From Agathobaculum sp. (GTDB lineage: Bacteria; Bacillota; Clostridia; Oscillospirales; Butyricicoccaceae), in assembly GCF_022775115.1 (NCBI RefSeq), contig NZ_JALFLA010000039.1, forward strand, positions 1-40,426: a stretch of 40,426 bases of DNA, written 5' to 3'. The notes beneath the pieces were generated by a model that ran no database searches, had not been told where the DNA came from, and worked only from the letters and a program-made list of their open reading frames with translations. Positions 677-40,426 of this stretch are shown one piece after another. Made by a program: the position numbers and the translations under genes. Numbering within the stretch: position 1 is the first letter of the stretch; each line of letters opens with the position of its first letter.

Positions 677-705
677 TTGATTTTCCAGCGCCAATCTGTT
701 ATTCT
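677..705 (+). promoter_or_regulatory. Sigma-A promoter for SLH gene
   Basis: TTGATT (677-682), a 17-base spacer, then TATTCT (700-705), in an AT-rich stretch. It would start RNA near 712 and give a leader of about 165 bases before the SLH start. The rest of the 504-877 gap holds the upstream ORF and stem-loops listed separately. Confidence 0.5.
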
Positions 706-761: not shown

Positions 762-881
762 ATGGCAAAATCGTACGGCGGCAAGGCACGCGGCGCGCCA
801 CAAGGGGGTATCCCCTTGTGGGAGACAGGATATCTGTCTCCCACCAATCTTTCTGCTGACAGAAAAAAGGAGGCACTATGA
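762..881 (+). CDS. 39-codon upstream ORF coupled to SLH gene
   Basis: ATG at 762 is preceded by a strong GGAGG/GGGGAGG site. It opens 39 codons (start MAKSYGGKARGAP, end NLSADRKKEAL) and ends in a TGA that overlaps the ATG of the SLH gene by four bases (ATGA), the classic arrangement for translational coupling. The second half of the ORF coincides with three perfect stem-loops at 800-865, so part of its sequence may be dictated by RNA structure. Glycine- and lysine-rich N-terminus; no recognised domain. Alternatives: a translated leader that couples or attenuates S-layer synthesis, or a structured RNA that happens to be open. No protein evidence. Confidence 0.45.
   Translation: MAKSYGGKARGAPQGGIPLWETGYLSPTNLSADRKKEAL
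800..865 (+). promoter_or_regulatory. Three tandem stem-loops in SLH leader
   Basis: Hairpin 1: ACAAGGGG 800-807 with CCCCTTGT 812-819. Hairpin 2: GGGAGACAG 820-828 with CTGTCTCCC 834-842. Hairpin 3: TTTCTG 850-855 with CAGAAA 860-865. All three stems are perfect, with loops of 4-5 bases. They stack almost end to end, and the third ends just before the GGAGG at 869-873 that serves the SLH start. Likely a structured 5' leader that controls stability or translation; the mechanism is inference. Confidence 0.6.
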
Positions 882-3800
882 GAAAACGAATCGTAAGCAT
901 CATCACAGCCTTGGCGCTGTGTCTGAATCTGCTGCCCGCCATGGCGCTGGCTGCACCGGGTCTGACCGTCTCGATCGGTGGGACGGCCTTGCAGTCCGGC
1001 AAGGAATATGTTGCCGCACCAGGCGGCGGCGTGGCGGAGCGAACAGATACTACGCCAAATTACATTGCATACGATGCGAATACCGCCGTGCTGACCGTGT
1101 ACGGCAAGGTTGAGATAACGGCGGCAGGCATGCAGGTTGCCGGTGGGACGCTGACCGTCACCGGCGAGGAAAAGACTGCGCTGACGCTGACGGACAACCG
1201 GGATCAGCCCACAGTTCATCTGGAAAACAGCACGCTGACGCTCGCGGGCCATGTGGACTTCACCGCCACGTCCAGCGCAAGCGCTGCCGCGCAGGGCGGT
1301 GCGATGGACACCGTCACGGACTACACCGGCAGCATCACGCTGTCCAATAACAGCAAGGGCAGCGTTGTGCAGGGCGTAAGCTTGAACCTGCGCACCATGG
1401 GGGATATCACCATCCAACACACCGGAACCGTGTACTCCCTCGGCTCTTCGTATTATGCCATTGAGTATACCGCCGACAGTCCGGCTACGCTTTCCGCCAA
1501 GACCGTGACGGTCAAGAGCAATATCAGTGCGGCGGTCAAGGGCGACGGCCTGCTGACCATCATCGACACCACAAAGGCCTCTATCAGCGGCTACGGCAGC
1601 GAGCCGGTGGTGGGAAAAGCGCGCTTTGAGTACTGCGGCGAGGTAGAGGTCAAGGAGAACGAATACGACAACGAGGGCGTTGTCGTGCAGGAGCTGACGA
1701 GCGTTGAATGCGGCAGCGTAACGCTTGTGCGCACGGCGCTTAACGCGACGCCGTTTTACGATAAGGTAACGAGCGATAAGCTGGTCATGCTGCAGGGCGG
1801 CGTGGGTACACCGCTCCTTGTCGCGCTGGAGGACGGTACGCTCTGGTTCTACGGCGGCGATATCACAAATACGGGCATCAGATACACCAACAGCGGCGAG
1901 GTGCCCAAGGGGCAGACCTATTACGAGGCGGGCGAGGGCAGCGTGCGCTTCGTCCCCATGATGTATGGCGCACCCGCACGGCTGACGCTGAATAACGCAA
2001 TATTGCATGGTGAACTGAATATGTGGGGCGTCACCAGCGACCTCATCCTTACGATAGAGGGCAGCAACCGGGCAAGTTATATCGGCGGAATGCAGAACAA
2101 AGATTTACTGTTCACGCTGGCCGGCAGCGGTGAGCTGACGTTCGACAGGTTGGCGTGGGGGCAGGTGCCTGCGGGGCTTGACAAGGTGCGGCTGAATGGA
2201 CTGGTGGCGAGGTATGATACCAGTCAAGATAGTCTGGTTACCGCCTATGGAAACGCGACGATGACAGCAACAGGTGGCGGCACCTTCACAGTGGGCAGTG
2301 TTGAGGAGAAGCCTGGCACATATGCGAATGTCCGGCTTGCCCTCGCGCCCGGCGCGACGCTCACCATCCCCGACGGTCTTACGCTTGAGGTCAACCGCAT
2401 GGACTGGCTGGAAAACAACGGCAGCATGGTCAACAACGGCATCGTCAAGCTGACGGATAACAGTGTACAGGATGTGAAAGCTGCCATCCGCAGTCTGAAA
2501 CTGACAGGCGCCGGTCTGGTCAGGGCGGTGAACGCGGGTGGCCAGCAGACGACCTATGCGAACAATGGCTCGGTGTGTATCGAGGGCACGCTCGACCTCA
2601 CCAACGCCGGAACGGAGGGCGAACTGGATGCCAACGGATACCACTGGGACAACGCCGCGAACACGCTGCAGCTGAAGGATATCACCTTAATGGACAGCGT
2701 AACGCTGCCGGCCGGTGACGCGGTGACCATTGTCACCACAGAGGAGAGCTTTATCAACGATATCGCCTTCGCGGGCGGAGATGCCGCGAATGTGACCTTC
2801 TCGGGCGCGGCGCGGCTGCTCGTCGGCAGCATTGCGGATACGCAGGCATCCAGCCTGACCGTGGACACGGATACCGAGGTAGTTGTGCAAAGAGGCGGCA
2901 TCAGCTTGGGCAGCGATGCAGACGGCAAGGATGCCGTGGTCACGGTAAAGGGCAAGCTGACCGCGAACGGTGATACGCCAACTCTTATAAAAGATGGGCT
3001 GCGGCTGAACGGCGGCGTGTATAACCGCGCAAATCTGTCGAGGGCACCTGTGAAGAATGTCCCGGCGGTCAACGTCGGGCAGGTGGTCGTTGGCAGCGGC
3101 GGCGTGCTGACCGTTTCCGGCGCGCAGGGCGTGCAGATCAACGGCATGAGCGCCCCGGATGGGCTGCTCGGCGCGTTCCAAGTGGAGGAGGGCGGACAGT
3201 TCATTGCGGACTGCACCGACTACAACCTCATGGTGCGCGCGGACGGCGCGGCCATCACCGCTGAGCAGGCAGAGCAGATTGTCAAGCTGCCGCAAGGCTA
3301 TCTGCCGGACGGGTATGCCGTGCGGCTGGTCAACAGCGCGGATGGCTCGCAGCAGGCGGTCACTATCGCACCGGAGAACGCGGCGCTCACGCTGTATCTG
3401 GGCAAGCTCACCGGTGCGGCCGGTCAGTTGAGTGTCACCAAGCAGGATGCCCCGAATGGCGGCGGCGATATCCCGCCCAGCAGCGGCGATGTGCCTGATG
3501 GCGGTGGGGATACCCCGAGCGGCGGCAATAACGGTGGCAATAACAGCGGCGCCACGTCCGGCGGCGGCTCGAACACTGGCGCTGCGACCCGCGCAGTCAG
3601 CGTGGGCAGCAGCCAAAACGGCACGGTGACACTCAGCCACAAAAACGCCGCCCCGGGCACGGCTGTTATCATCACCGCGACCCCGGATAAGGGTTATCGG
3701 CTGAGCGGTATCACCGTTACCGACAAGAACGGCAAGCAGCTGGCGGTCACCCGCAAGAGCGACAGTGTGTACACCTTTACGATGCCTGCGGGCGAGGTGG

Positions 3801-4384
3801 AAATCAAGGCCGTGTTTGAAAAGGCCGATGCCGAGACCGAGCGCCCGATGCTGCAATTTGGCGATCTGGATACAGGCGCGTGGTATTACGAGGCGGTGGA
3901 CTATGTGCTGCAGAACGGCCTGATGAGTGGCTACGGCGACGGGAGCTTTGGCCCGGATGACAGTCTCTCCCGCGCGATGCTGGCGCAGATCCTGTACAAC
4001 AAGGAGGGCAAGCCCGCCGTGTCCGGCACAGGCAGCTTTGCCGATGTGCCGCGCGGCGCGTGGTATGCCGGCGCGGTCAGCTGGGCAAGCGAGAGAGGCA
4101 TCGTTAGCGGCTACGGCGACGGCGGCTTTGGGCCGGATGATCCCATCACCCGGGAGCAGCTGGTCGTCATGCTGTGGCGCTATCAGGGCAGCCCTGCCCC
4201 CACCGGAACAATGCCGGACTTCACGGACGCGCAGCAGATCAGCGGCTACGCCAAGGATGCTGTGACATGGGCGGCGGAAAACGGCATTGTCAGCGGAAAC
4301 GGCGGCGGCGTACTGGTGCCGAGCGGCATTGCCACGCGCGCGCAGGTAGCGCAGATGCTCAAGAACTTTATGGAAAACGCCTGA
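878..4384 (+). CDS. SLH-domain surface protein, 1168 aa
   Basis: A secreted cell-wall protein. Residues 1-25 are a signal peptide with an ALA cleavage site. Residues 26 to about 855 are Thr/Gly/Val-rich short repeats of beta-helix or adhesin character with no recognised catalytic motif. A Gly/Ser/Asn linker covers about 859-903. Residues about 904-982 match an InlB-type B-repeat (SSQNGTVTLS, then TPDKGYRLSGITV and TMPAGEVEIKAVF). Three SLH domains follow at about 992-1035, 1052-1095 and 1112-1160 (WYYEAVDYVLQNGLMSGYGDG, ITREQLVVML). SLH triplets bind pyruvylated secondary cell-wall polymer, so the protein should be displayed on the surface; what it binds is not evident. ATG 878 has GGAGG five bases upstream. 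Terminator at 4445-4483. Two other SLH genes, one decayed, lie at 14-16.7 kb. Confidence 0.93.
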   Translation: MRKRIVSIITALALCLNLLPAMALAAPGLTVSIGGTALQSGKEYVAAPGGGVAERTDTTPNYIAYDANTAVLTVYGKVEITAAGMQVAGGTLTVTGEEKTALTLTDNRDQPTVHLENSTLTLAGHVDFTATSSASAAAQGGAMDTVTDYTGSITLSNNSKGSVVQGVSLNLRTMGDITIQHTGTVYSLGSSYYAIEYTADSPATLSAKTVTVKSNISAAVKGDGLLTIIDTTKASISGYGSEPVVGKARFEYCGEVEVKENEYDNEGVVVQELTSVECGSVTLVRTALNATPFYDKVTSDKLVMLQGGVGTPLLVALEDGTLWFYGGDITNTGIRYTNSGEVPKGQTYYEAGEGSVRFVPMMYGAPARLTLNNAILHGELNMWGVTSDLILTIEGSNRASYIGGMQNKDLLFTLAGSGELTFDRLAWGQVPAGLDKVRLNGLVARYDTSQDSLVTAYGNATMTATGGGTFTVGSVEEKPGTYANVRLALAPGATLTIPDGLTLEVNRMDWLENNGSMVNNGIVKLTDNSVQDVKAAIRSLKLTGAGLVRAVNAGGQQTTYANNGSVCIEGTLDLTNAGTEGELDANGYHWDNAANTLQLKDITLMDSVTLPAGDAVTIVTTEESFINDIAFAGGDAANVTFSGAARLLVGSIADTQASSLTVDTDTEVVVQRGGISLGSDADGKDAVVTVKGKLTANGDTPTLIKDGLRLNGGVYNRANLSRAPVKNVPAVNVGQVVVGSGGVLTVSGAQGVQINGMSAPDGLLGAFQVEEGGQFIADCTDYNLMVRADGAAITAEQAEQIVKLPQGYLPDGYAVRLVNSADGSQQAVTIAPENAALTLYLGKLTGAAGQLSVTKQDAPNGGGDIPPSSGDVPDGGGDTPSGGNNGGNNSGATSGGGSNTGAATRAVSVGSSQNGTVTLSHKNAAPGTAVIITATPDKGYRLSGITVTDKNGKQLAVTRKSDSVYTFTMPAGEVEIKAVFEKADAETERPMLQFGDLDTGAWYYEAVDYVLQNGLMSGYGDGSFGPDDSLSRAMLAQILYNKEGKPAVSGTGSFADVPRGAWYAGAVSWASERGIVSGYGDGGFGPDDPITREQLVVMLWRYQGSPAPTGTMPDFTDAQQISGYAKDAVTWAAENGIVSGNGGGVLVPSGIATRAQVAQMLKNFMENA

Positions 4385-16176: not shown

Positions 16177-16250
16177 AGCCGAATTGTGTAAAGGTAGCAC
16201 GACAGACTCTGACTCTGTTTGTGAGGGTTCGAATCCTTCTTCGGCTGCCA
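16177..16250 (+). tRNA. tRNA-Gln (anticodon CUG)
   Basis: 74 bases with CCA encoded. Acceptor AGCCGAA (16177-16183) pairs with TTCGGCT. The D arm closes with GTG/CAC around AAAGGTAG. The anticodon arm is ACAGA-CTCTGAC-TCTGT, which puts CTG at the anticodon and so reads CAG glutamine codons. The T arm is GAGGG-TTCGAAT-CCTTC, and the discriminator base G is as expected for Gln. A single tRNA with its own promoter and terminator. Confidence 0.93.
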
Positions 16251-40232: not shown

Positions 40233-40274
40233 CAGCAAACAAACAAAAAGACGGACAAAAACCCGGTTTTCGCG

Positions 40275-40403
40275 TATTCTTCTTTCATCCAGACTATACT
40301 GTCGGCTTCGGAGTTTCACCGAATCATGCATTGGCCTCTGACACAGAGACCGCCGCTCGCGGGCTGTACCGCCGGTAGGGAATCGCACCCTGCCCTGAAG
40401 AAT
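40275..40403 (-). promoter_or_regulatory. FMN riboswitch (RFN element)
   Basis: Reading the minus strand: P1 arms ATTCTTC/GAAGAAT at the ends, then the conserved AGGGCAGGGTGCGATTCCC, ACCGGCGGTA, AGCCCGCGAGC, GCATGATTCGGTGAAACTCC and GAAGCCGACAGTATAGTCTG. These are the diagnostic blocks of the FMN aptamer. FMN binding is expected to favour the downstream terminators and switch off ribD-ribE-ribBA-ribH. The promoter must lie beyond the window's right edge. Confidence 0.97.
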
Positions 40404-40426
40404 CTGATATTCGGTTTTGGTAAAAC

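Follow-up and report, generated by a model that had tools for sequence, protein, structure and literature searches.

A tandem-hairpin leader, probably an RNA control element, upstream of an SLH surface-protein gene in a gut bacterium

Several described leader RNAs resemble the element reported here. The SLH motif, as presented in Fig. 3e of its source, is a riboswitch candidate found upstream of SLH-domain genes in groups that include Clostridia (Stav et al., 2019, PMC6429828). Hairpin-stabilised pauses have been reported in which 10-13 nt separate the hairpin from the paused end downstream of it (PMC12288461). ANTAR (EutV) RNAs are small hairpins with hexaloops that carry A1 and G4 (PMC3369931), the HK022 put RNA contains conserved bases that are essential for its activity (PMC9378689) and the LoaP-dfn element needs a UNCG hairpin (PMC12691694). 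Against Rfam, the leader that we describe gave no match at the gathering threshold and only chance-level matches at E up to 10, and the hairpins of its other copies gave no match. Because the same arrangement precedes other secreted-protein genes in relatives, the tandem hairpins are probably an RNA control element that Rfam does not list.

Two overlapping hairpins ahead of a large SLH gene

The window (the whole stretch of DNA analysed, 40,426 nt) carries the gene of a large secreted SLH protein, in whose leader a first-pass annotation had seen three consecutive perfect stem-loops reaching the SLH ribosome site, and a 39-codon open reading frame (uORF) that has a strong ribosome site and whose stop codon overlaps the SLH start (ATGA). 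The uORF is there as described, and so are the three stem-loops (Table 1), but hairpins 1 and 2 overlap rather than follow one another: they share 818-821, where GTGG pairs either with CCAC 798-801 or with CCAC 841-844 in an X-X'-X arrangement. The 120-nt segment 762-881 folds at -47.0 kcal/mol vs -34.4 +/- 3.3 kcal/mol for shuffled sequence (z -3.81), a value equalled by 0/200 shuffles. Among the copies described below, the loop-proximal AAGGGG/CCCCTT of hairpin 1 is conserved in part, the arms of hairpin 2 vary widely in sequence with their pairing retained, and hairpin 3, by inspection, has no consistent presence. A scan flagged hairpin 2 (818-844) together with CAATCTTTCT as terminator-like, with a U tract that is weak and begins 3 nt late. 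A promoter scan of the window leader found none, the weak promoter-like site of Table 1 included. Because of its palindromy, hairpin 1, taken with the adjoining 5' sequence, also matches the covariance model on the minus strand (782-819, 19.6 bits).

Table 1. Features of the SLH leader and other features of the window
Feature	Position	Strand	Remarks
ORF-like segment	366-503	-	45 aa, like the start of a helix-turn-helix regulator, early stop; possibly a truncated gene
Weak promoter-like site TTGATT-17-TATTCT	677-705	+	8/12, spotted by eye
39-codon uORF, ATG to TGA	762-881	+	stop overlaps SLH ATG (878); not conserved, probably incidental
Hairpin 1	798-821 (798-807/812-821)	+	CCACAAGGGG-GTAT-CCCCTTGTGG; 10 bp, loop 4
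5' X (CCAC)	798-801	+	competitor of 841-844 for the middle arm
X' (GTGG)	818-821	+	middle arm common to hairpins 1 and 2
Hairpin 2	818-844 (818-828/834-844)	+	GTGGGAGACAG-GATAT-CTGTCTCCCAC; 11 bp, loop 5
3' X (CCAC)	841-844	+	alternative partner of X'
U-rich tail CAATCTTTCT before G	845-855	+	T|G 10 nt past hairpin 2; pause-like geometry
Hairpin 3, TTTCTG/CAGAAA	850-865	+	6 bp; ends just 5' of AAGGAGG
Shine-Dalgarno AAGGAGG of the SLH gene	867-873	+	read from the sequence
Secreted SLH protein	878-4384	+	1168 aa; signal peptide MRKRIVSIITALALCLNLLPAMALA, Flg_new_2 domain, 3 SLH domains
tRNA gene	16177-16247	+	
FMN riboswitch	40273-40406	-	110.7 bits

The genome from which the window comes (G000) holds 90 SLH matches at about 35 loci, a very large SLH expansion in which some loci have the signal peptide in common and little else. 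The signal peptide of the window protein is also that of a paralogue in the same genome, C50, whose leader has a tandem pair of perfect hairpins too, built from different arms and lacking an overlapping ORF. The hairpin pair was not seen at the roughly 35 other SLH loci of this genome.

Copies and covariation in related genomes

A profile of the signal peptide, searched in the family and the order, led to further leaders with the same architecture in G054, G257 (four), G166/G687, G495, G613 and G449. Altogether, the hairpin 1-2 element is present in about 15 independent copies spread over two families of the same order; nearly every one lies upstream of a signal-peptide gene (surface, SLH, solute-binding). 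The arms share 4-6 nt in five sequence types (the window, both G257 types, G166/G687, G495 and G613) and 2 nt in G054; C50 and G449 share none, and in the first set the two copies with no arm overlap are C50 and L208. Three of the G257 copies are near-identical. Near one G257 copy, a sub-threshold match to the fluoride riboswitch (29 bits, gathering threshold 34) lies on the minus strand of L144 (186-283).

When about 1.49 Mb were searched for hairpin pairs overlapping by at least 2 nt, these leaders were returned together with two further places in G687, L262 and L261; two shuffles of 0.58 Mb gave none. L262 is the leader of a sugar-binding lipoprotein gene, which it precedes by 188 nt, and has a promoter-like site. 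At L261 (2468-2524), an X-X'-X arrangement (GAAGTAA/TTACTTC/GAAGTAA) and a long terminator-like hairpin stand before an aldolase-like gene. Overlapping hairpins occur in 10/77 leaders of genes with the window's signal peptide, meaning that most such leaders lack the element, and among 585 control leaders every match was to one of these loci or to an ORF divergent from it. The settings for detecting overlap were picked after the window had been seen, and an independent covariance model was therefore run too. A sequence pattern of the window and C50 hairpins, searched in the family, 394 genomes of the order and viral contigs, returned only its own two copies and chance-level matches.

Covariance models were bootstrapped from a single copy, with non-window copies used, since MAFFT gave no structural alignment of the hairpins. 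A model of four non-window copies from other species ranks the window leader (800-845) first in 40 kb (21.4 bits, E 0.0024), with E-values that are modest and dependent on the search space and a window score that is likewise modest in a larger search. Across 390 genomes, model R3 gave 8 matches at E up to 0.001, of which three were copies that the model had been trained on and five were new (L285, L287, L288, L289 and L291), at a sensitivity that is low given that a known copy in G166 (C12) was missed under strict filters. The new copies all precede signal-peptide genes (5/5), the proteins behind them having SLH, Flg_new, MucBP, LRR or solute-binding domains, with one showing no recognised domain. 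In alignment A9, which was fitted to the structure and thereby favours pairing, all cells are paired (100%) across seven distinct non-window rows and both sides have changed in 14/16 pairs, the perfect palindromes having been found without any alignment. The covariation score is 1.06 vs 0.31 +/- 0.06 when shuffled (0/500 shuffles as good), and sliding the partner by 1-3 columns leaves at most 55% paired. Taken at the level of sequence comparison, hairpins 1 and 2 are very probably a real, conserved structured leader element.

Other kinds of leader repeat came to light in these searches. Three leaders of the same signal-peptide class (L037, L188 and L198) are of a different type: TTCGTCCC recurs in them as direct repeats, and a hairpin rich in G and C (CCGGGCGG...CGCCCGG in L198) lies near GAATTGC and GACGAATC; the arrangement looks like sites of a regulator. 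A recurring hairpin, AGCGTGTCGA...TCGACACGCT, stands beside other hairpins at L158 and L165 in G257 and at L221 in G056, two genomes that belong to different families, and is possibly a dispersed repeat.

How the element might act

The first question is whether the element works as RNA or as DNA. At L285, a c-di-GMP-I riboswitch aptamer (1642-1726, 59.6 bits) lies about 100 nt downstream of the tandem hairpins on the same strand, between them and the gene of a MucBP-domain secreted protein, and this makes the region very likely a leader RNA. Promoter-like matches (9-11 of 12) occur in 8-9 copies, more than half, with the -10 lying at a variable distance of 3-32 nt ahead of hairpin 1; the window and C50 have no clear promoter. 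Together with arms that change under constant pairing, the riboswitch downstream and the promoter-like sites upstream lead us to favour RNA, and it is highly probable that the element acts in this form.

What it does as RNA is a more delicate matter. Three features favour pausing or attenuation: the U-rich tail with its T|G, the terminator flag on hairpin 2, and the two alternative pairings of X', whose energies are about 1 kcal/mol apart. In the tail 3' of hairpin 2, T makes up 40% of positions 3-10 and 15% beyond. T|G falls 8-10 nt past hairpin 2 in 11/15 copies where 2.8 are expected, a rule noticed post hoc, and in 3/5 of the new R3 copies. We therefore envisage, tentatively, that 798-855 is a structured 5'-leader element (X-X'-X hairpins, U-rich tail, U|G) operating as a co-transcriptional pause site or attenuator. 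During transcription, hairpin 1 would form first and take X', and hairpin 2 could complete its base only by displacing hairpin 1 from X'. The full hairpin 2, 8-10 nt behind U|G, would then be placed nearly as in a hairpin-stabilised pause or a weak terminator. RNA polymerase would be held back or attenuated not far from the 5' end, and the leader would thereby set the mRNA level for a large exported protein. As to the mechanism specifically, we favour pausing or attenuation over its rivals, at somewhat less than even odds. The element is used by a group of related gut bacteria, probably Oscillospirales, upstream of genes for secreted and surface proteins.

The main rival is mRNA stabilisation, with stem-loops at or near the 5' end guarding long surface-protein messages from 5'-end-dependent decay. 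The target messages are indeed long, arms that are locked in structure and free in sequence would suit a physical shield, and in L208, L289, G054 and G257 a -10-like site 3-16 nt ahead of hairpin 1 would place the hairpins at the 5' end. However, a shield leaves the shared X-X'-X arm and the tail unexplained, and in some copies the element lies at least 20-30 nt from the predicted start, the window itself having no close promoter. On balance we consider stabilisation rather unlikely.

An RNA switch bound by a protein, or a processive antiterminator of the LoaP, ANTAR or put kind, could promote read-through of long genes, and hairpin 2 is flagged as terminator-like. In HK022 put, what is recognised is a pair of hairpins in the 5' leader. 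ANTAR proteins also recognise dual leader hairpins (PMC3369931). Yet the element offers little conserved sequence to a recognising protein. The loops of the copies are variable and mostly of 4 nt (GTAT, GTAC, GCGC, GGCC, CGCG, CATG) and the ANTAR hexaloops with A1 and G4 are absent, a mismatch on which an ANTAR target RNA was rejected. LoaP antitermination was likewise rejected on the presence of one NusG per genome, and no LoaP paralogue, in the seven genomes examined, the window genome being about 96% complete. This leaves protein-directed switching or antitermination as an improbable reading.

The palindromes could alternatively act at the DNA level, as operator sites, recombination sites or a mobile palindromic repeat. 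Hairpin 1 has a perfect palindrome at its centre in 11/15 copies; an RNA hairpin has no need of one, and a role in DNA could be behind it. The three near-identical G257 copies would also suit a repeat. But an operator or recombinase site would retain its sequence, whereas here the arms differ among most copies and the pairing is kept; the element moreover goes with gene starts, several copies being preceded by a promoter-like site and one being followed by a riboswitch. A mobile DNA repeat was rejected: the leader DNA has no second copy in its own genome and no match in plasmids. A DNA-level element thus appears quite improbable.

Least probable of these readings is the coupling first proposed for this leader, in which the hairpins would be melted by ribosomes translating the uORF and initiation at the SLH start would be coupled in this way. 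In its favour, the uORF has a strong Shine-Dalgarno run (GGAGGGGAGG, 750-759), an ATGA overlap and a frame that stays open across the hairpins. Against it, the uORF has no conserved peptide and a poor coding score, and the hairpins of other copies come with no credible overlapping ORF. No relative of the peptide turned up in 87 family genomes (best non-self E 0.02), in the GTDB genome or viral collections, or in phage records, and a conserved peptide was rejected on these searches. Of dinucleotide-shuffled leaders, 2.5% yield a Shine-Dalgarno-preceded ORF that overlaps the start and runs for 39 codons or more. The codon score, -0.157 bits per codon, is higher than that of about 94% of wrong frames and falls at the 8th percentile when ranked among local gene windows (below about 92% of them). 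A credible overlapping ORF is absent from the other hairpin copies, that of C50 included, where the corresponding frame meets a stop codon five codons ahead of the start; the only other overlapping-ORF match, L289, starts upstream of that leader's own promoter-like -10. The uORF could be translated, but with no sign of selection on it we regard it as probably incidental, or at most a private feature of the window leader. The annotation had also suggested that coding and RNA structure share the same bases, and that leader and ORF be traced in relatives by covariance model. The part that endures is the RNA structure, which is selected, tied to a large surface-protein gene and found again in relatives with compensatory changes; the ORF is not kept there, and peptide, coding score and other copies give it no role.

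Relation to described leader RNAs

How bacteria with some 35 SLH loci, such as this one, select large surface proteins for expression is poorly known. If the proposal is right, a leader of fixed structure and free sequence before a subset of SLH genes would be a concrete handle on surface-protein control. The element also exemplifies a type of RNA that sequence-similarity searches overlook. We would go further only speculatively: judged from sequence, the copies might represent a new class of leader RNA, from gut bacteria that are probably Oscillospirales; in it, freely varying near-palindromic hairpins would make a nearly isoenergetic shared-arm switch that tunes pausing or attenuation of secreted and surface genes, self-complementarity being nearly the sole sequence need.

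This claim to novelty is lowered by the SLH motif, with which the window element may coincide. Compared by description only, both are structured RNAs upstream of SLH genes, Clostridia included, and they differ in that the motif is described as a proposed riboswitch candidate whereas our element has variable arms and little conserved sequence (PMC6429828). The other systems stand further apart: (i), LoaP-dfn is also a leader hairpin, one that controls very long transcription units in a Firmicute, but both its UNCG hairpin and a LoaP paralogue are required (PMC12691694) and neither is found here; (ii), HK022 put is likewise a two-stem RNA near the 5' end, one that acts on RNA polymerase (PMC9378689), and is set apart, by its description, by conserved sequence to which our element has nothing comparable; (iii), ANTAR (EutV) RNAs share the two tandem leader hairpins and an alternative pairing that includes a terminator stem (PMC3369931), but the stems here are of 7-13 bp and the loops mostly of 4 variable nt. 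With respect to pauses and intrinsic-terminator attenuators (PMC12288461), our element differs by its two shared-arm hairpins and by having no known antiterminator or ligand, and its 8-10 nt spacing is at the short end vs the 10-13 nt of reported pauses. It resembles them in its GC-rich hairpin, in the 8-10 nt that separate this hairpin from a U before G, in its location in 5' leaders and in its terminator-like tail.
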